Shown piece after piece: positions 32,293 to 44,603 of a stretch of 64,000 nucleotides of DNA. The DNA lies in the NCBI RefSeq assembly GCF_020179605.1, contig NZ_JAINZO010000001.1, forward strand, positions 2,144,799-2,208,798, in the 5' to 3' direction. The notes under the pieces are model-generated. The model saw nothing but the letters and a program-made list of their open reading frames with translations, searched no databases and was not told the origin of the DNA. The position numbers and the translations under genes are program-made. How positions within the stretch are numbered: position 1 is the stretch's first letter; every line of letters begins with the position of its first letter. This DNA comes from Geomonas agri. GTDB taxonomy: Bacteria > Desulfobacterota > Desulfuromonadia > Geobacterales > Geobacteraceae.

Positions 32293-33912
32293 ATGACAAA
32301 CCTCACAATCGCAAAACGGTTACTGCTTGGCTTTGGAACCGTGTCGTTGCTTCTGTTCATCGTTGTGGGGGCGGGAATGAAAGGGCTCTACAGCAGCGCC
32401 GACCAGTTGAGCAACGTCAACCGCATCAGCGGGCTCACGGCAAGTGCCGGCCAAGTGCTGCTCAACCTGCAAGGGATAGACGAAGAAATCAAGGGACTCA
32501 TGCTGGCCGAGACACAAGCGGATCGGGATAAGATTGTTAAACACATTGAGGATCACCGCAAAGCCTACCAACAGGCACTGGACGCGCTGAAAAAGAACAC
32601 GAAGACGCCCGACGGCAAGAAGCTGGTAGCGGAGTTGGACAGCGCACTTAAAGCCGGCACAAAGGTGAATGAAACACTTATGACCATTGCGGCCTCGGGA
32701 GACACCGCCAAGTTCAAGGCCGCCATTGCCAGCGAGGGAGAGCCGGCCCGGCAAAAATACGTAGCAGCGGCCGAAGCGCTGATGGACTACTACGCCAAGC
32801 GGACCGACTTGAGGGTCAAGTCTGCACAAGAAGCGGGTACTGCTGCCATTACCACCATGCTGATCACCGGGTGTATCGCCTTTTTACTCAGCGTCGGCAT
32901 TTGTGCCTTCCTCACCTCGGGGATAAATTCGGCGCTGAAGCAGATAAGCAGCGCCATTGCCGTCATAACCGGTGGTGATCTCACCCGGCGCATCACCTAC
33001 CACTCCAAGGATGAACTGGGCCGGTTAAGCGATCACATCAACGATTTCGTCGGCAGGATCCAGTCCATCATGCAGGATTTGTCCGGCGATGCCCACAGGG
33101 TGGCCACGGCGTCGACACAGTTGCAGGCAACGGCGCAGCAGATGGTTCAGGGAACCGAAGAGATCGTCGCCCAAGCCAATACCGTTGCCACCGCAGGAGA
33201 AGAGATGGCGGCGACCTCCAACGACATAGCGCAGAACTGTCACCTCGCCGCCCAGGGCGCCCAAGGCGCCAACCAGGCAGCGGTCGACGGCGCAGGGGTT
33301 GTCGAGGCCACCGTGGCCGTTATGGGAGTAATAGCCGACCGGGTGCAGGGGGCGGCGAGGACCGTGGAATCGCTCGGCGAGCGCTCCGACCAGATCGGGG
33401 CCATCGTCGGAACCATTGAAGACATCGCCGACCAGACCAACCTGCTCGCGCTCAACGCGGCCATCGAGGCGGCCAGGGCGGGTGAGCAGGGACGCGGATT
33501 TGCCGTCGTCGCGGATGAGGTGAGGGCCCTGGCCGAGCGCACCACGCGCGCCACCAGGGAGATCTCAGAGATGATACGCACCATCCAGGGGGAAACCCAG
33601 AGTGCGGTCCAGGCCATGGAGGATGGCAGCAAGGAAGTCGAGCGCGGGACGCAGCAGGCTTCCCGTTCCGGGCAGGCGCTGGAAGCCATCCTCGAGCAGA
33701 TACACGCCGTCATGATGCAGGCGAACCAGATTGCCACAGCCGCCGAAGAGCAGACCGCGACGACGAGCGAAATCAGTTCCAACATGACCCAGATCACGAA
33801 TATCGTGCAGGCAACCGCCCAAGGTGCCGACGAAACCGCCACCGCCGCTACGGCACTAGCCTCCATGTCGGTCAGGCTCCAGGACATGGTCCGCCAGTTC
33901 AAGGTGGCCTAG
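32293..33912 (+). CDS. Methyl-accepting chemotaxis protein (four-helix-bundle sensor, HAMP, MCPsignal)
   Basis: 539 residues. Transmembrane helix (about 8-30), a helical periplasmic sensor (about 31-185, four-helix-bundle type), a second helix (about 186-209), HAMP (about 210-262: [14 protein letters not shown]), then the MCP signalling domain with the conserved hairpin tip [40 protein letters not shown]. No C-terminal CheR-docking pentapeptide is seen. GGGAGG precedes the ATG and a T-tailed terminator follows. The ligand is unknown. Confidence 0.92.
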
Positions 33913-33993
33913 CCTTTATGGTCGGTATCGGCGACTTTTAGTCCAAGCTGATCTTAGCCGGGATTTGCGGACGAACCCTGAGCAGAAGTATGA

Positions 33994-34026
33994 AAGTGGC
34001 GAATGAACATCCTTCGCCACTTTTTT
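33994..34026 (+). terminator. Rho-independent terminator of the chemoreceptor gene
   Basis: AAGTGGCGAA pairs with TTCGCCACTT around a 9-nt loop, followed by TTTTTT. Confidence 0.88.
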
Positions 34027-34061
34027 GTGCCTGCTTTTTGCCAGTTTGTATTTTTTTCTGA

Positions 34062-34545
34062 AGTCAGGGTGGGTTAAAACACGGTCCGTGAAATTTTCGC
34101 ACTTTCATGTGCGCGTGAAATGCACTTACATATCGAAAAAACATCTTTGCGAGGTGAAATTTCAACTAAGTGTGTTTCAAACACCAGTCCGATAATTTTC
34201 CGCATTTTCACATGTGCGAGAATTTCACTCACCTGCGTTTAAAAAACATTTACATGACGTAAATTCAACTCAGTTTGTTTTTAGTTCCGGTCACTTTCGT
34301 TTTCGAATTTTACTCGTCGGGAAATTTCACCTGAGGTGAGCTTGAAAACAACTTAGTTGAAATTAAATGCAACTAAGTGTGGTTCAAATTCATGTCTGGG
34401 TGATTTCTGAATTATTAGGTGACCGGAAATTGAACTGACCTATGGTTAAGAAACTTTCTTCCGCCATTGATCACCAATGAGTGGGTTTCAAAAGGAGGTC
34501 TGAGAGGTTTTTCAATTATTTCTGCGGGAAAATTCGCTTTCAGTT
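34062..34545. repeat. Degenerate ~104-bp tandem repeat array (about four units plus partial ends)
   Basis: Five copies of an end motif of the form AACTnAGTGTGTTTCAAA-N5-GTC-N7-TTTTC finish at 34098, 34200, 34304, 34408 and 34513, giving spacings of 102, 104, 104 and 105 bp. The middle of each unit repeats GAAATTTCAC-like and AAAAAACAT-like words in the same order. Units differ at many positions but stay in register. No coding frame runs through it. Some units hold inverted repeats (CTTAGTTG / CAACTAAG at 34352-34377). The function is unknown; structured RNA or a protein-binding platform are both possible. Confidence 0.75.
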
Positions 34546-34630: not shown

Positions 34631-34667
34631 CCCCCCCTTTGCGAAGGGGGGTCAGGGGGGATTTGCT
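34631..34667. repeat. Dispersed GC-rich palindromic repeat, copy 6
   Basis: C-run, TTTGCGAA, G-run, TCAGGGGGGATTTGC, just downstream of the repeat array. Confidence 0.85.
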
Positions 34668-34764
34668 TTTTAAATTTAGATGCTTTTGGTGTGGAGAGCG
34701 GGGAGACGAGGCAGCTTCGGCCCGCCGTTGTGGCGGCAGGCCGAAGCAAGGGAGAAGGTAAAGC

Positions 34765-35436: not shown

Positions 35437-35567
35437 AGACACCTCCCAAGCAGGATTTATTAGCAAGTGCCAATATATCGAATCCCGCTGGGGTGTCAAG
35501 GAACTGAGTAGCACCTCCTCCGCCTTACCCCAACCTGCGATGCACCGGCAGCCCCCCCCCTAGGCTG

Positions 35568-38671: not shown

Positions 38672-39440
38672 GGGGGTGAGCCTCCGGGGTTGGGGGACGA
38701 CGGAAGTTTACCCGATATAGCTTGAACGTCTAGGTGCTGTTGGGTTAGGCGGCTGCCTTTGCTTCGCTCGGCTTGCGGGGGAACTGAAAGGAACGACTGT
38801 GGGGGGTGCGGCATCACTTCGTGGCAAGGGTCCGCCTTCGCTAAACGCCGGCCTTCGTTTCACTGCGGAAGGCAGCTACGGTGGACAACCTTCGCCAAAA
38901 ACAAAAGGCTTCGGATGACACTGGCGTGCCAACCGAAGCCTTGGCGAAGGTTGGTGGTGGCGTCTATAAAACAAATCACACAAATATCGGTTTTATAATG
39001 GTTAATTTGTTGGCGGCAAGGCAGCATACCCCCATTTATACCCCTAATATTTGGAGGCTAAAGCTCTGCAGGCGAGGGTAATAGCTGCTGCTGTGTCCAT
39101 AATGGTGAATTTCTGTCATAGAAACTTCGCATTCCCTGATGATGGCTCCTAGGTACAACCCCACCCTATAGAGCGCACTACCCGGTGCCTCCCCGGTATG
39201 GCGTATATCGCTTGGCCTCATCCAATCCCCCCCGGTAGGACTTTCAAAAACTTGCTCTTTCAGCGCACTTATCTAAAAAAATTGAAATTTTGGGTCTCCA
39301 AATTTGAGTGTGGAATAGGGCTATAGCTAGCCGTCCTTGATGAAGGCTAACAAGGTGGAAATGTCCACTCCGTAGTTGATGACTAGCTCCTTGCTACTTT
39401 GGACCGTCCAACGGTTGAAGGATGACCAGATAGGTTCTGG
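38672..39440. other. 769-bp region at the island's left edge
   Basis: No convincing gene. It contains an inverted repeat (38887-38952: AACCTTCGCC and GGCGAAGGTT outer arms, GGCTTCGG and CCGAAGCC inner arms), a TTGGTGGTGGCG segment resembling the ssrA 3' end (38951-38962), and two ATACCCC(C) boxes (39026-39044). The sequence turns A/T-rich after about 38965. Confidence 0.7.
38951..38962. other. Candidate distal attachment-site remnant
   Basis: TTGGTGGTGGCG matches the ssrA 3'-end strand TTGGTGGAGGTGGCG (44783 onward) apart from a 3-bp deletion. If real, this is the copy of the ssrA end left at the far side of the island. The match is short. Confidence 0.35.
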
Positions 39441-39992
39441 TCAATCCGTATGTTGGGTACGCCGTTTAGACATTGAATGCATAGACATAATTATTGAAAT
39501 AAAACCTATGGCTGTTAAAAATGCGCCAACAGATATGCTTAATCTGTCTCTATATGCCAGAACTACTAATATGCCAAGAAGGAAAAGAGTAGTTCCACTA
39601 ATCACTAAGAACCAGTTAGTGAAGACACTAAATGTCATTATTTTACTAAAATTACTTTTGCCTTCATCAAATATTTCTTTGTAGGTAATGCGTACATCTG
39701 AAATTGGTAAATTTTTTATTATTAGATATGTGGAGATATATTGGGCTAAACTCAAAAAAAACATAACTATAATTAATAATTTCCATGAATGCTGTTTCAT
39801 AAGGCCTGTTAGAAGCGGCACACTTCCTAGAGATAAAAATATCCACCTGCTGATATGAGAGACAACTTTTTGGTAAATTTGCTCCGAAACGACAATGCGC
39901 CCTTTGCCAAAACATCCGAAAGGATAATAGATACGAGTTCCTTCGGGGCTAGTTCTAAAAGCAGATTTTATTCTCATATCAACTAGATTCAT
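39441..39992 (-). CDS. Island cargo: four-helix membrane protein
   Basis: 183 residues. A soluble N-terminus (about 1-45, with FRTSPEGTRIYYPFGCFGKG) precedes hydrophobic helices at about 48-65, 72-90, 120-143 and 150-172. The middle loop (ISDVRITYKEIFDEGKSN) is cytosolic. I do not recognise it. A/T-rich codon use unlike the host genes. ATG 39992 follows GGAG; a TTG four codons earlier is less likely. Confidence 0.6.
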   Translation of the reverse strand: MNLVDMRIKSAFRTSPEGTRIYYPFGCFGKGRIVVSEQIYQKVVSHISRWIFLSLGSVPLLTGLMKQHSWKLLIIVMFFLSLAQYISTYLIIKNLPISDVRITYKEIFDEGKSNFSKIMTFSVFTNWFLVISGTTLFLLGILVVLAYRDRLSISVGAFLTAIGFISIIMSMHSMSKRRTQHTD

Positions 39993-40118
39993 ATTTTTCT
40001 CCAAACTACTTATTGAGCGGCGTCTTTTCTGAATTTGGAGAAGCCTTTACGTGCGCAAGGGAGTCCAAGTTTTCTCATAGATACGCGCGCGGAGGCTACA
40101 AACCATAGTTAGAGATAC

Positions 40119-40541
40119 TCACTTTTTTTTGGGTTTGGACCGCTTTGCATAGGAACAAACTACATTTAAGTTATATTCAGCAACCGTCTCTGGGAGAGCA
40201 GGCTCAAAATTAGGGTTTGGATTTGTATTTGAAACCGCTGTATTGTCATTACTATAGTCATGCACTGATAAATATCGGTACTCTCCAATGTCACAATTAT
40301 ATTCAATTTGGGACATTGTGTGGCTATAATTTTCATATGGTATACTTACATTGTCTGCGGAATGTCTTTCACGGCTCAAAATCGTCTTAGTATAAATTAT
40401 GATAGTTCCACGTCCAGTCTTTGTCACTCTCGATGCATCAAAATACCCATTATACAATTTTTTCCAATCAGCAGCGGAGGATTCGGTAGCAATGAATAAT
40501 AAACTTAACAGCAGCAAAAGAAATTTGTAGTTTAAGCTCAT
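40119..40541 (-). CDS. Island cargo: exported protein, surface-adhesin E-like
   Basis: 140 residues with a signal peptide (1-23, ending SSAA). The mature domain begins DWKKLYNGYFDASRVTKTGRGTIIIYTKT and ends before an Asn/Pro linker, with paired cysteines (EYNCDIGEYR and VVCSYAK). This is the pattern of the small surface-adhesin protein E-like domain (PF16747-type). It is followed by a Lys-rich C-terminus. A/T-rich. Confidence 0.6.
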   Translation of the reverse strand: MSLNYKFLLLLLSLLFIATESSAADWKKLYNGYFDASRVTKTGRGTIIIYTKTILSRERHSADNVSIPYENYSHTMSQIEYNCDIGEYRYLSVHDYSNDNTAVSNTNPNPNFEPALPETVAEYNLNVVCSYAKRSKPKKK

Positions 40542-40558
40542 TTACTCCCCCTAAAGTA

Positions 40559-40765
40559 TTACGGACGACAGATTTTACAAGGGACATATCCATTTTTGAT
40601 AGCTTGATCGCGAGAGTCGAAACGTACTTTGTTGGCAGGGTTTATCCGTTTTGCTGAAGGGCAGTCATCATTATGGAATTTGTGCGTTTTTTTATTACCA
40701 ACAAAAGCAAATGCTGAAGTTACAAAAAACAGCATGATGACAGTTGCTATGATAATTTTATGCAT
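40559..40765 (-). CDS. Island cargo: small exported Ada-like zinc-ribbon protein
   Basis: 68 residues. A signal peptide (1-20) is followed by FVGNKKTHKFHNDDCPSAKRINPANKVRFDS and GYVPCKICRP. The four-Cys/His arrangement is like the Ada metal-binding domain, in the form often found in secreted competence- or nuclease-associated proteins. AGGAGG precedes the ATG. It starts 18 bp before the surface-adhesin-like gene and is probably co-transcribed. Confidence 0.65.
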   Translation of the reverse strand: MHKIIIATVIMLFFVTSAFAFVGNKKTHKFHNDDCPSAKRINPANKVRFDSRDQAIKNGYVPCKICRP

Positions 40766-40807
40766 GCCACCTCCTATTTGAGTTTCTCGCTGCACACTTA
40801 TGTGAAA

Positions 40808-41287
40808 TTAGTTAGAGTAGTCCCATCTGGCAACTACATAGGATACTTTTTCCATTGCCCCACGCGAAATGCCAGATATCTTGCCAGATACTGTTGCTAT
40901 TGTAGAACTATTAAGTAACTTAGCTGTACCAGTGGCTGTACCAAGAACCACGCCACTCTTTGACTTTGCTTCAAATATCATGTCACAGTAGTAAGGTGCA
41001 TAGACCTCTCTATTAAATTTATAATTTACCATTGAAGTAACAGCAATATCATACGTTTGTTCACTATGTTTTGTGTCAATAACATTAGTAGTTGGAATGC
41101 ATTCGATTGATACTGATTCAATTTGAGCAGTCGCTGTTTCGCCACTAACTCCAAATACTATTCCAGACTCTATTTTTGATGGGAACGCTTGTATTTTTGT
41201 GACATCTATGTTGCTTGTTAACCTTTCGATGTAATCGCATCCGAAAAAGAGCAGCAAGCAAGCGAATGTGGCAAATAGTCTCATCAT
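40808..41287 (-). CDS. Island cargo: lipoprotein of unknown function
   Basis: 159 residues. Signal peptide with lipobox LFFGC (Cys17). The mature part is beta-rich with two cysteines (SIECIPTT, YYCDMIFEAKS). First gene of the four-gene cargo run on the minus strand; spacings of 42, 17 and 126 bp to the next genes. Not recognised. Distinctly A/T-rich. Confidence 0.6.
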   Translation of the reverse strand: MMRLFATFACLLLFFGCDYIERLTSNIDVTKIQAFPSKIESGIVFGVSGETATAQIESVSIECIPTTNVIDTKHSEQTYDIAVTSMVNYKFNREVYAPYYCDMIFEAKSKSGVVLGTATGTAKLLNSSTIATVSGKISGISRGAMEKVSYVVARWDYSN

Positions 41288-41361
41288 AATTGCCTCCTTC
41301 TCCTATAGTACAGGGCATGGGCATTGGTAGCTTTATATCCTTGCCCATTCTCATTAACAAT

Positions 41362-41398
41362 AAAAAACCGACTTACCTGTGAGAGGTAGCCGGTTTTT
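41362..41398 (-). terminator. A/T-flanked hairpin, likely bidirectional terminator
   Basis: AAAACCG pairs with CGGTTTTT and ACCT with AGGT inside. A-run on one side and T-run on the other fit termination on both strands. Confidence 0.65.
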
Positions 41399-41482
41399 AG
41401 TGGTGTTTTGATGGTTAGCGTCCCATCCACACTTGTCAGGGTATTGGACCTAGATAAATATTTTCCTACTCAAGAGCGTTAT

Positions 41483-41598
41483 GCTCACTCGCTCAAGATG
41501 CATTGAGTACGAATATTGTCATTTACCCTTGCGTGCTGCTCACTCGCTCAAGAGGGCTTGAGTGCTTTAGGCGCTCTCCCACTCAAGGCAGCTTGAGT
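41483..41598. repeat. Array of three CTCAAG-N4-CTTGAG palindromes
   Basis: Sites at 41492-41507 (imperfect, CTCAA...TTGAG), 41547-41562 and 41581-41598 (both CTCAAG-N4-CTTGAG). The first two also share the direct repeat GCTCACTCGCTCAAGA (41483 and 41538). A fourth partial site is at 41467. Form suggests binding sites for an island protein, such as a regulator or replication/excision factor. Confidence 0.75.
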
Positions 41599-41676
41599 CT
41601 TTATATTTCTATGCCATACCCTCCCATTTATAGGCGGGTACTCAGGCAGGGAATAGATAGGTTAGCCATGATGATT

Positions 41677-42123
41677 TCAGGTGGTATGCGCGGTTGCTCC
41701 GATTCTGGCTTTCTTGGCAGCTCTTGCCTTTTCAATGTTGGCGGTGTTCTTCAGTGGCGGCGTCCAAGTCTTCCAGCCGTCTTGCAGTTGGTAAAGGTTA
41801 GGTATTCCGTCCCCATTTGCAGTCCCTCCAGGTCGTACAACACAAATGAATCCCATTGTTTTTAAACCGTCTATGGCATTCTGAAATGACTGCGGGTTCA
41901 TACCAAGTGTACGTTTAGCTTCACTGAAAGGAAACGGGAACACTGGACGCCCCGGAAGTCTGTCTTTCTCTGCGGCAGCAGCGTCAGATTTGGCAAGGGC
42001 TACAGTCAGCACATCGGTTTGCGATTTGGAAAGGTGCCTATATGCTGGGAACGTTACCATGTCAAAAATAAACACCCTTGCATACCAATTCAGCTTATGA
42101 GGTGGAGTTTTCTTTTTGCCCAT
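41677..42123 (-). CDS. Island protein with winged-helix-like region, unknown function
   Basis: 148 residues. LSKSQTDVLTVALAKSDAAAAEKD followed by FSEAKRTLGMNPQSFQNAIDGLKTMGFICVVRPGG reads like a winged helix (helix-turn-helix then beta-wing), the form of replication or regulatory proteins in small mobile elements. The C-terminus is Lys/Ala-rich. The start at 42123 follows GAGGGGG. The call is from pattern only. Confidence 0.5.
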   Translation of the reverse strand: MGKKKTPPHKLNWYARVFIFDMVTFPAYRHLSKSQTDVLTVALAKSDAAAAEKDRLPGRPVFPFPFSEAKRTLGMNPQSFQNAIDGLKTMGFICVVRPGGTANGDGIPNLYQLQDGWKTWTPPLKNTANIEKARAAKKARIGATAHTT

Positions 42124-42166
42124 TGTCACCCCCTCACGACTAAAAGCTGCTGTTTTAGGGTTTTGG

Positions 42167-42418
42167 TCATTGCCGTCCCCCCTTCGCCTGCCGATACAGC
42201 CAAGCCCGACAAGCTGAAAAGCGTTTAACAGGTTGTACAAGTTCGCCTGTGGCATAGGTGAAGACAATCGCCCTAGTAGCATCGTCATCACTGAATTCAA
42301 ATGTCACAAGTGCTTTACCCGGTTGGCGTAATATCGCGGGCATCTTACCAGTTGCCGTCATAATGGTGGCGCTAAGGTCAATATCTGTGGTTTGGAATTC
42401 TGCCGGTCTGTTGGTCAT
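42167..42418 (-). CDS. DUF5659-like island protein
   Basis: 83 residues. EFQTTDIDLSATIMTATGKMPAIL, then VTFEFSDDDATRAIVFTYATGELVQPVKRFSACRAWLYRQ, matches the small DUF5659 family, found in integrative elements and phages and of unknown function. AGGAGG precedes the ATG, and it lies 5 bp after the AlpA-like gene, so they form an operon. Confidence 0.6.
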   Translation of the reverse strand: MTNRPAEFQTTDIDLSATIMTATGKMPAILRQPGKALVTFEFSDDDATRAIVFTYATGELVQPVKRFSACRAWLYRQAKGGRQ

Positions 42419-42423
42419 GGCGT

Positions 42424-42630
42424 CTATACCTCCTCAACTGTTTCAATCAGTTTGAGAATGTCGGCGTAACGCCAAGCAGTTGTGCGTGGCCCTAGCTTAA
42501 CTGATGCAGGGTATTTGCCGGATTTCACCCCTGCCCACCATGAGCTTTTGCATACGGGAATGAGCGTCAGGACTTCTTTGAGCCGGAGTAACCGGCAAGT
42601 GGCGGGATAGTTCAGTTCTGCGGTGTGCAT
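42424..42630 (-). CDS. AlpA-family helix-turn-helix regulator
   Basis: 68 residues. RLLRLKEVLTLIPVCKSSWWAGVKSGKYPASVKLGPRTTAWRYADI is the AlpA/excisionase-type MerR-like HTH, which in P4-like elements activates the integrase/excision genes. It lies close to the integrase on the same strand, as is usual. GGAGG precedes ATG 42630. Confidence 0.85.
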   Translation of the reverse strand: MHTAELNYPATCRLLRLKEVLTLIPVCKSSWWAGVKSGKYPASVKLGPRTTAWRYADILKLIETVEEV

Positions 42631-42730
42631 GTTGTTGACCTCCAAAAGGCTTTTTGTGTCGCTTGGAAGTCAGGGTAATTCAGTAGTGTCCAAATAGATA
42701 AAGGGGGGGATTCCGTGGAAATTGAGGGGA

Positions 42731-43363
42731 TTATTCCCCCTTGACATGGTGCCGTTTCTCCACCATTGCAACTCCATCGCGTAAAGCGTCACGCAGGTCG
42801 CTCACCAATATCTTTGACTGTTGGAAACAAATCTGCGCAACTCTCCAATAAATTGAAGCCTTCTCGGCTCCTGCCTGATTGTACGACGGGCGGCTAGCGT
42901 GAGTTGGGACGTGGATATTTTGAAGAGCTTGTGCAATGTCTGCTGCTAAAGTCGCTGGTATGTCAGAACGGTCTGCACCTCTTCCCGAGAGTTCTTCATT
43001 CGCCATATCAGAAGCTATCCGCACTATTCCAGCCAAGATCCGCGCCTGTTTCTCCGATTCAGCTTTAGAAATCCCTTGGCGCAGAAAGTAAACAGCACCT
43101 GCTGCGATGGGGATTTCTTCTAATCTTTTGGCAAATTCTTCTGCACTTTTAGCCGCTCTTGCAAATGATTTTTTTAGACCTTCTCGGCTAAGTTTGTCTT
43201 CCATTTCTTTAGTTGCCTTTGCCCTGCCTACAGCCATGTTAAGTGCTGCTAGCAGTTCAGACGCTTCTTCGCGTTGTAAGCCAACCGTAGCTAAAATTTC
43301 ATCCTCTACCTCGGCAGATAAGGGGTTCTTTTCGAGTTCTTCAGTCCCGTAAGGCAGTCCCAC
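42731..43363 (-). CDS. Island hypothetical protein, helical
   Basis: 210 residues, soluble and mainly helical, with a Glu/Lys-rich coiled-coil-like part (about 40-85). No recognised domain. It starts 19 bp after the integrase stop on the same strand, so it is likely co-transcribed. The N-terminal GLPYGTEELEKNPLSAEVEDEI part might be a dimerisation segment. Confidence 0.5.
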   Translation of the reverse strand: MGLPYGTEELEKNPLSAEVEDEILATVGLQREEASELLAALNMAVGRAKATKEMEDKLSREGLKKSFARAAKSAEEFAKRLEEIPIAAGAVYFLRQGISKAESEKQARILAGIVRIASDMANEELSGRGADRSDIPATLAADIAQALQNIHVPTHASRPSYNQAGAEKASIYWRVAQICFQQSKILVSDLRDALRDGVAMVEKRHHVKGE

Positions 43364-43382
43364 AGATCACTCTCCTCCTGTT

Positions 43383-44603
43383 TTAGGCTTCAACTCGCTT
43401 CAGCGGCAACACCTTTGCCTCTGTTTTCAGACCTTGAAGGTAATCCGCCCAAACCTGCATCATCTTTTGGCGTTCGGTAAGGTGGGCCGTTCTGTTATAA
43501 GCTCTGCCGTTAGGATCTCGTACAGCATGAGCAAGTTGATGCTCAATGAAATCAGGACGGAACTGCAACACTTCATCGAGAATGGTACGTGCCATTGCAC
43601 GGAAACCGTGACCTGTCATTTCGTCTTTGTCAAACCCCATCCTTCTTAAGGCAGCGTTTATAGCGTTGTTCGACATAGGACGCGCAAACGACCTCCCTGA
43701 AGGGAATAGGTAAAGACTTCTGCCTGTAACGACTTGCAGTTCTGTGAGTATGGCTATTGCTTGCGTGGAAAGAGGCACAATATGGGGCTGCTTCATCTTC
43801 ATCCGAGAGGCGGGGATGTTCCATAATTTGCTGTCAAAGTCGATTTCAGACCACTCAGCTTGCCGCAACTCTCCGGGTCTAACAAAAAATAGTGCTGCAA
43901 GTTGCAAGGCGCATTTTACAGGGAACGTACCTTTATAATCATCTATGGCACGCAATAACGGTGCAACGGCTTTAGGGTTCGTGATTGCCGAAAGGTGGCT
44001 TTTCTTGTATGGGGGTAATGCTCCTTTGAGGTCTGCCGCACAATTTCTGTCTGCGCGTCCAGTGGCAACCGCATAACGGAAGATCTGGCCACAAATTGTC
44101 CTAATACGGTGAGCAGTTTCAAGCGCTCCCCTTGATTCTATGCGCCTTAGCATTGCAAGAACTTCAGGGGCTTTGATTTCAGAGATTGGCCGCGCCCCGA
44201 TAACAGGGATAACATCTGCATTCAAGCGACGTAGTGTTGTAACAGAATGAGTTTCAGACCAGTCTGCAGAAAACTTATGGTGCCACTCTCGTGCAATCAC
44301 TTCAAAGCTGTTTTCAGACGTGGCAACCATAGCTGCTTTTTTAGCCTTTTTAGCTTCAGAAGGATCAATACCATTCGCCAGCATCTTCCTTGCCTGTAAA
44401 CGTTTTTCACGGGCCTCAGAAAGCGATATTTCAGGATAGGTGCCTATAGCGAGAACCTTCTCTTTACCGAGAAACCGATATTTGAGCCGCCAACACTTCC
44501 CGCCACTCGGAGTCACCAAAAGGTACATTCCGCCACCATCCGAAAGCTTAACCTGCTTCTCTGCGGGCTTTGCGGTTCTTACCTTCACTTCTGTCAACGG
44601 CAT
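43383..44603 (-). CDS. P4-type site-specific tyrosine integrase
   Basis: 406 residues. An N-terminal DUF4102 arm-binding domain (GGGMYLLVTPSGGKCWRLKYRF) and a C-terminal phage-integrase catalytic domain. Catalytic residues are in place: Arg242 (VRPGELR), His332-x-x-Arg335 (GHGFRAM), His359 (HQLAHAVRD) and nucleophile Tyr369 (RAYNRT). It directs insertion at the ssrA 3' end 180 bp away. The upstream 44621-44678 double inverted repeat may bind the integrase or AlpA-type protein. Confidence 0.92.
   Translation of the reverse strand: MPLTEVKVRTAKPAEKQVKLSDGGGMYLLVTPSGGKCWRLKYRFLGKEKVLAIGTYPEISLSEAREKRLQARKMLANGIDPSEAKKAKKAAMVATSENSFEVIAREWHHKFSADWSETHSVTTLRRLNADVIPVIGARPISEIKAPEVLAMLRRIESRGALETAHRIRTICGQIFRYAVATGRADRNCAADLKGALPPYKKSHLSAITNPKAVAPLLRAIDDYKGTFPVKCALQLAALFFVRPGELRQAEWSEIDFDSKLWNIPASRMKMKQPHIVPLSTQAIAILTELQVVTGRSLYLFPSGRSFARPMSNNAINAALRRMGFDKDEMTGHGFRAMARTILDEVLQFRPDFIEHQLAHAVRDPNGRAYNRTAHLTERQKMMQVWADYLQGLKTEAKVLPLKRVEA

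Follow-up and report, generated by a model that had tools for sequence, protein, structure and literature searches.

Small-protein genes paired with phased tandem arrays in Geomonas agri and other bacteria

The Array and Its Locus

In a window of 64,000 nucleotides from Geomonas agri (the whole stretch of DNA that was analyzed, on contig NZ_JAINZO010000001.1), an array of repeated units lies between the stop of a chemoreceptor gene and a convergent gene coding for a small protein with a fibronectin type III (FN3) domain (table 1). An original prediction, made from the sequence of the window alone, had placed a tandem array with a period of about 104 bp here, and the array is indeed present: its self-identity is 0.465 at lag 103 and 0.421 at lag 104, compared with 0.262 ± 0.023 at lag 104 in dinucleotide shuffles, none of 1000 of which matches the array either at lag 104 or at the best lag in the range 20-199. 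A motif shared by the units is found by a repeat finder in register at 34158, 34261, 34365 and 34469, that is at spacings of 103, 104 and 104, with an extra copy out of register at 34221; the spacings of 102, 104, 104 and 105 bp given previously were thus right within 1-2 bp. When the five units are aligned, as had been suggested, 20 of 104 columns are invariant, and unit 1 joins the others by such alignment only. Tandem Repeats Finder does not report the array at a minimum score of 30. The array was said to hold no coding frame, in agreement with the absence of any ORF overlapping 34062-34545 in a list that holds only ORFs of at least 80 residues.

Table 1. Coordinates of the array, the flanking genes and associated features in the window.
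Feature	Position	Strand	Remarks
Chemoreceptor gene	32293..33912	+	
Hairpin + T run 3' of chemoreceptor gene	33993..34028	+	14-nt arms, 93% complementary
Array unit 1	34062..34165	.	104 bp
Array unit 2	34166..34268	.	103 bp
Array unit 3	34269..34371	.	103 bp
Array unit 4	34372..34475	.	104 bp
Array unit 5	34476..34545	.	decayed or partial; exact end uncertain (one alignment ran to 34560)
Hairpin between gene stop and array	34714..34747	-	14-nt arms, 93% complementary; no T run after; absent from terminator scan
Array-linked gene, 223 aa	34768..35436	-	helical domain, residues ~17-110; FN3 domain, ~134-222; stop codon 34765-34767
Promoter-like site upstream of array-linked gene	35472..35499	-	TTGACA, 16 nt, TATATT; 11/12 consensus match

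Within the array a shorter period of 20.7 bp is evident from raised lags at 21, 41, 62/63, 124, 165 and 186, while lags 11, 15 and 88, also raised, lie off this series. The comb score of the window array is 3.0 against 0.79 ± 0.28 in 1000 permutations of the unit columns, none of which scored as high; since such permutation preserves the 104-bp period, it tests the sub-period alone. The 104-bp unit therefore corresponds to about five sub-units.

The protein of the convergent gene was modeled by AlphaFold2 as a helical domain followed by an FN3 domain with mean pLDDT of 86.8, which reaches 93.4 for the helical domain modeled alone. That the FN3 domain of the family has the fibronectin type III fold is borne out by Foldseek, in which the 50 best of 178 hits (E <= 0.001) are all FN3-type structures, by the comparison of the family profile with PDB sequences (best FN3 E = 4.8e-10) and by Pfam fn3, matched by 23 of 46 members at E <= 0.1 with a best value of 1.4e-7; the window protein alone has an fn3 E value of 0.04, short of the Pfam cut-off. 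A search of PDB folds with the helical domain gave nothing below E = 0.94, and Pfam gave it no match above cut-off (46 aligned members surveyed at E <= 0.1 and eight others at E <= 1). Neither the window protein nor one homologue reached the cut-off for any entry of Pfam, NCBIfam or PADLOC. The gene is kept under purifying selection, as its dN/dS is about 0.28 in comparison with G011 (dN 0.076, dS 0.273) and about 0.10 in comparison with G005 (dN 0.097, dS 0.966), the two genomes having an array orthologous to that of the window. Promoter-like sites number two, against 1.3 ± 1.1 in shuffles. The hairpin on the chemoreceptor side, also found in G011, G005 and G002, is read by eye as the terminator of the chemoreceptor gene; it is absent from the terminator scan.

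Two further elements were seen in the surroundings. A palindrome formed by a C run and a G run (CCCCCCTTTGCGAAGGGGGG and the bases following it) adjoins the array at 34632-34665 and recurs in G010, G015, G023 and G024 at 92-98% identity, as a multicopy REP-like element. At 39376-44603, a group of small ORFs accompanies what was recognized by eye as a tyrosine-recombinase-like integrase (43383-44603, minus strand), giving the region the appearance of an integrated element.

The Array Accompanies the Gene of the Helical Protein

In G002, G003, G007 and G014 there is an array of different sequence and period, in all four cases 3' of a homologue of the convergent gene. The distance from chemoreceptor gene to array is 2 kb in G003 and 12 kb in G007; in G002 an array follows the chemoreceptor gene at a contig end and again stands at the start of the contig bearing the gene, and no chemoreceptor gene was spotted on the array's contig in G014. 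A link of the array to the chemoreceptor gene was dropped because the arrays of other species track the FN3 gene, in two of them at the above distances from the chemoreceptor gene. Close homologues of the window gene (at least 41% identity) have an array in 13 of 13 genomes, as scanned with 400-bp windows, lags of 40-200 and z >= 7 (settings unlike those of the later scan), and the periods are ~41, 82, 101-104 or 122-123 bp, always multiples of the sub-unit; in G005 the gene and the array are on two contig ends. The window thus contains one instance of a chromosomal module with two parts, namely a phased array and, beside it, a gene for a small protein whose helical domain is usually followed by a C-terminal FN3 domain, and the original prediction had overlooked both this pairing and the multi-copy nature of the pair.

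The FN3 domain is dispensable for the pairing, since all ten of the examined proteins that consist of the helical domain only have a 3' array (they come from four assemblies and about four homologue groups, judged by eye, and one has a stop inside the profile match). The helical domain looks like the core of the module. Its pI averages a slightly acidic 6.2 in FN3-bearing members, in which the FN3 part has a mean of 9.4, and the pI of FN3-less members is 8.1-9.5 in six of the seven computed.

Some individual loci have peculiar features. A probable insertion sequence of IS3 type, judged by eye, lies between family gene and array at one locus of G003 (L023, 3951-5150), with both left in place. 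An ORF of 555 codons spans the 102-bp-period array of G007 (L058, 7612-9279) and could be annotated as a gene; it is likely a by-product of the repeat, because 102 divides by three. About 4 kb away from a family gene, G011 contains a separate tandem array (L110, 10072-10663) made of 153-bp units with 93% matches, which is not of the 20.6-bp kind.

Distribution of the Modules

The family profile has 9-19 matches per genome in 19 genomes of the genus (by all appearances Geomonas together with Citrifermentans), 24 in one genome of the sister genus and 2 and 4 in two others, and some of these Geobacteraceae matches may be FN3-only. The protein family is held by 22 of 48 genomes of the bacterial family and, in a wider sample of the phylum, by 2 of 297, namely the window's own genome and one with an FN3-only hit; assemblies G371-G373 apparently duplicate G006, G013 and G005.

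Arrays were scored by band autocorrelation in 300-bp windows (z >= 6.5, lags 17-130, within 1 kb of the gene), the cut-off of 6.5 having been chosen after the scan output was known. Among the 67 of 299 Geobacteraceae family matches that were examined, 54 genes have an array within 1 kb, in 49 cases 3' and in five 5'. The array-less 13 comprise three cut by contig ends, one with the array beyond an insertion sequence and nine with none at the cut-off, some of which show weak 20-22 bp signals 5'. Fourteen further loci, eight of them FN3-less, were fetched later. Of the 13 matches in the window's own genome ten were examined, and eight of these have an array, compared with none of 400 control tiles of 1 kb, drawn from 20 stretches (400 kb) that have no family gene by profile. 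In the locus control, array signals are carried by 4 of 440 1-kb tiles situated more than 1.5 kb from the genes, and two of these four fall in one 102-bp repeat, apparently the coding sequence of TPR repeats.

Outside Geobacteraceae, a query with two sequences returned relatives in records named Flavobacteriales, Bacteroidetes, Spartobacteria, Verrucomicrobia, Methylococcales, Methylococcaceae and uncultured bacterium, together with Geomonas and Citrifermentans. The 14 genomes reached via such loci, three of which are Geobacteraceae, contain 3-19 family matches each, and the 101 matches of the 11 distant genomes were fetched in part for the array scan. In genome samples taken around single records (centre genome counted), the family is present in 9 of 395 genomes from the phylum of a Flavobacteriales record, 6 of 288 from the phylum of a Spartobacteria record and 15 of 151 from the order of a Methylococcales record, figures in which some genomes match by one domain only and part of the candidates were scored. 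Matches lacking FN3 also occur among the distant genomes.

The distant genes, from Flavobacteriales, Verrucomicrobia/Spartobacteria and Methylococcales, have a 5' array in 60 of 90 cases, and in two others the signal is 3', with lags of 17 and 27; this set excludes five Geomonas loci (L187-L189, L194 and L195), as well as the Citrifermentans locus L205 that was scanned with it (91 genes, 89 loci) and removed for the count of 90. The lags of 56 of these 60 5' arrays fit multiples of 20.7, the exceptions being 44, 44, 45 and 130. The side of the array therefore differs, being mostly 3' in Geobacteraceae and 5' elsewhere. Across all 158 scanned genes, 116 have a signal, which for one consists of an odd lag alone (L264, lag 27), and 42 have none at the cut-off, some of them at contig ends. 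One locus from a MAG named Bacteroidetes (L193) resembles L191 and L192, from MAGs named Methylococcaceae and Methylococcales, in protein match and weak array signal, and its contig is probably misbinned.

Conserved Pitch and Fast Sequence Turnover

The best lags of the 54 Geobacteraceae arrays cluster at multiples of ~20.5-20.7 bp (R = 0.97) with a fitted pitch of 20.67 ± 0.31 bp, and the 62 other arrays, which include L205 and two measured on the odd 3' signal, give 21.15 ± 0.51 bp, the fits having been searched from 18.5 to 23.5. A period of 41 implies a pitch of 20.5, so that helix phase would fit better than a fixed integer unit. It had been claimed that the period holds while the sequence diverges, as this clustering confirms, and that 104 bp nears a whole number of helical turns, which finds its counterpart in the recurring pitch of about two turns. 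The A/T-richness noted in the window array (38% G+C) is real for that array, but strong A/T-richness is not general, because array G+C spans 0.20-0.75 (means of 0.48 and 0.51 vs. 0.56 and 0.57 for their loci). The pairing of gene and array, the many copies, the presence in four bacterial groups and the pitch of about two turns are all established by computation.

The sequence of the arrays changes more quickly than the protein, whereas their pitch and position are retained and so outlast the sequence. Arrays sharing at least 20 8-mers account for 60% of 30 pairs at protein identity >= 70%, 23% of 95 pairs at 50-70%, 5% of 203 at 35-50% and ~2% below 35%, the last value being equivalent to background, and in ten pairs with proteins 70-87% identical the arrays share fewer than 12 8-mers. 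The window array itself is conserved in close relatives, where a search for it had been recommended: it is 83.7% identical in G011, with 20 gap columns partly located in unit 5, and over units 1-4 it is 70.8% identical in G005, with 4 gap columns in 400 bp. Four-fold sites are 77-84% identical with G011 (three genes) and 56 and 71% identical with G005, values so close to those of the array that base change in the latter appears near neutral. Its spacing looks held over units 1-4, without the same in unit 5. The earlier idea that selection acts on spacing is not supported in the form in which it was given: it agrees with the recurrence of the pitch and with the few gaps vs. G005, but not with substitution at about the four-fold rate and the more numerous gaps vs. 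G011, and we infer such selection mainly from the recurring pitch.

A Putative DNA Platform

We tentatively interpret the array, with confidence falling just short of even, as a putative DNA platform for a cooperative nucleoprotein complex. The array would act as double-stranded DNA to which the protein encoded at the locus, or else a common host factor that this protein recruits, might attach, contacting one DNA face every second helical turn; cooperative assembly along the array could then produce a nucleoprotein body, with the FN3 domain as a possible interaction surface. Candidate roles for such a body would be chromosome marking or folding, silencing, self-retention of the module and action against foreign DNA. 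We lean toward an architectural or self-maintenance role because a recurrent partner gene, an enzyme domain and carriage by phages or plasmids were not found in a small number of searches. Among 547 neighbor ORFs there is no recurrent partner, the largest cluster being response regulators (16 loci), which are a common family, and the next having 4. For six proteins, PHROGs gave only weak matches, the best linking the FN3 part to tail proteins (1.6e-4); there was no match in phage records for two family proteins, in IMG/VR for one and in plasmids for two.

The nature of the array leans, though not strongly, to DNA rather than mRNA, on account of the hairpins after the stop, the split direction of neighboring genes, open frames that are even between strands (see below), the lack of G-T excess and the pitch of about two turns. 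At every one of the 49 loci with a 3' array, a 45-nt segment folding below -12 kcal/mol is present no more than 90 nt from the stop (mean -25.4 vs. -11.3 kcal/mol when shuffled), and TTTT is present in only 17 of the 49 hairpin regions, so that most of these hairpins need not be terminators. The gene beyond the 3' array is convergent at 23 of these loci, on the same strand at 25 and absent at one.

Fast sequence turnover, units mostly devoid of dyads and the non-basic helical domain of FN3-bearing members argue against a simple operator array, and the ten pairs of similar proteins with dissimilar arrays are awkward for strict sequence-specific binding. In favor of the platform, dyad symmetry is found at p <= 0.05 in 9 of 64 arrays with 20-22 bp units (combined p = 1e-5, related loci not being independent). 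Palindromes had been considered as a general rule and were rejected, since their frequency, 6 of 54 with mixed-length units and then the above 9 of 64, is that of a minority trait. The turnover, the scarcity of dyads and the charge of the domain could all be reconciled by a complex that reads phase or that is cooperative and of weak sequence specificity. Counting against a platform are the lack of a PDB match for the helical domain below E = 0.94, the switch between 3' and 5' side, the near-neutral base change of the window array with its 20 gap columns vs. G011, and the 42 of 158 genes without array.

Alternatively, the array could be transcribed into a repeat RNA bound by the helical protein, in the style of type III toxin-antitoxin systems or guide-RNA arrays. 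We consider this unlikely, even if the layout is similar (a tandem array next to a single small-protein gene, in many cases separated from it by a hairpin) and each genome has many divergent copies. As RNA, the window region folds better than shuffles (z = -4.5 for the plus and -3.2 for the minus strand), but inverted repeat copies can explain the fold of the whole region, and the folds of single units are not better than those of shuffles (z from -1.61 to 0.95 in 12 folds). The tandem RNA structures that the original prediction had offered as an option have no clear support: complementary double changes are 32 of 68 vs. about one-third expected in 24 arrays with dyads, a mild excess that could come from shared duplication, and G-T combinations, at 123, are not above the 150 of A-C. 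Moreover, the consensus fold of three species has an unfavorable covariation term of +6.79 with 8 of 120 pairs compensated, and the family proteins have no PADLOC, Nop or RNase match. An Rfam search returned nothing near a gathering score.

Even less probable, in our estimate, is that the array is a functionless marker, a by-product of ~21-bp tandem duplications made by the protein or by replication past its bound footprint. Such an origin would accommodate the fast turnover of sequence with constant pitch and place, substitution in the window array near the four-fold rate and higher-order repeats resembling satellite turnover. It is harder to square with arrays remaining beside the gene in four bacterial groups and with the retention of pitch in the strongly diverged window array, which has so few gaps vs. 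G005, even if more vs. G011.

An ordinary minisatellite or intergenic repeat without relation to the gene is very improbable given the enrichment of arrays beside family genes over control tiles (4/440 and 0/400), despite the record, in Geobacter bemidjiensis, of multicopy direct repeats that measure 6 to 42 nt and lie between genes (PMC2996986). Translation of the repeats can equally be given next to no credence: frames open beyond 300 bp in 29 of 54 arrays vs. 21.6 and in 38 of 62 vs. 31.4 under a repeat- and dinucleotide-matched null, together with the 555-codon ORF of G007, would speak for it, but the excess concerns both strands (plus 31 vs. 22.0 and minus 35 vs. 19.3 in Geobacteraceae; plus 51 vs. 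34.2 and minus 44 vs. 33.6 in the other groups), 49 of 116 arrays have no open frame over 300 bp, periods such as 41 and 20 bp shift the frame and the window array is without an ORF of 80 residues. The moderate excess on both strands is what the matched null leaves, two cruder nulls having overstated its significance.

Comparison with Known Systems

The DNA platform that we favor, and the modules in general, may be compared with several known arrangements. Type III toxin-antitoxin systems (ToxIN) similarly have a protein gene by a short tandem array with a hairpin between, but ToxIN-type repeats are ~34-48 nt long and encode an RNA inhibiting an endoribonuclease, whereas the present family has a pitch of 20-22 bp and no toxin domain was found: in the search for a toxin of the ToxN, TenpN or CptN type, the helical domain had no Pfam match above cut-off and sets of two and eight proteins had no PADLOC match, PADLOC possibly lacking some such toxins. 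Iterons and partition sites resemble our arrays more closely in spacing, as they consist of tandem sites ~20-22 bp, or two helical turns, apart beside the gene of the binding protein, and the same spacing is found here. Iteron proteins, however, are winged-helix Rep proteins on replicons; the modules seen here occur in many chromosomal copies per genome with a repeat sequence poorly kept among homologues, and no protein of Rep, ParB or ParR type was recognized by Pfam above cut-off or, for the helical domain, by PDB fold match below E = 0.94. CRISPR arrays consist of nearly identical 25-36 nt repeats that alternate with unique spacers, unlike the present arrays, in which the whole unit is repeated at a pitch of 20-22 bp.

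TIGR-Tas systems also have a small protein gene beside a tandem array, placed up- or downstream, with a repeat sequence that varies by locus (PMC12045711). Tas proteins contain a Nop domain, and in the majority of their arrays two repeats take turns, separated by variable spacers of 9 nt, and the arrays give rise to 36-nt RNAs (PMC12045711). The present family differs in having no Nop match in Pfam (46 aligned members at E <= 0.1 and eight others at E <= 1) and in having arrays of 20-22 bp units, none of which was seen with two repeats and 9-nt spacers in the column profiles of 64 arrays inspected by eye; some of these arrays (L097, L126 and L205) do show a firmer core with 5-8 looser columns.

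Intergenic multicopy direct repeats of 6-42 nt are described in the G. bemidjiensis genome (PMC2996986) and intergenic direct repeats are likewise recorded in G. metallireducens (PMC2700814). Since these repeats are intergenic and belong to close relatives, they may include some of the arrays considered here, but the passages on these repeats make no link to a protein family, a helical pitch or other phyla. Borg elements contain fast-evolving tandem repeats too, which differ by residing on archaeal extrachromosomal elements, and the excerpted text of that report mentions no associated protein family (PMC9879509).

The original prediction knew of no described family of this kind. Our searches concur, insofar as no curated family scores above cut-off except FN3 and no published description of such a module was found among the matches listed in open-access PubMed Central papers, a scope that stops short of subscription journals and within which we call the kind new. 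The modules probably form a new class of autonomous multi-copy elements, each composed of a small helical (mostly helical-FN3) protein with its own satellite-like array that is conserved by pitch and place rather than sequence, a bacterial analog of satellite DNA equipped with its own protein, which would be common to Geobacteraceae, Flavobacteriales, Verrucomicrobia and Methylococcales. If so, several bacterial groups would carry up to about two dozen protein-plus-array copies, which annotation likely misses because, FN3 apart, the proteins reach no cut-off of a curated family and because the degeneracy of some arrays, including that of the window, lets them evade a standard repeat finder. 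The modules could be chromosome organizers, a selfish element or an unrecognized defense system. With pitch conserved and sequence free, it would become possible to test cleanly if a protein recognizes DNA through its helical phase. Among the carriers of the modules are named Geomonas strains.

A different kind of repeat was seen in a Flavobacteriales MAG, where a CRISPR-like array with a period of ~71 bp (L211, 1-466) lies ~1.3 kb from a phased array.
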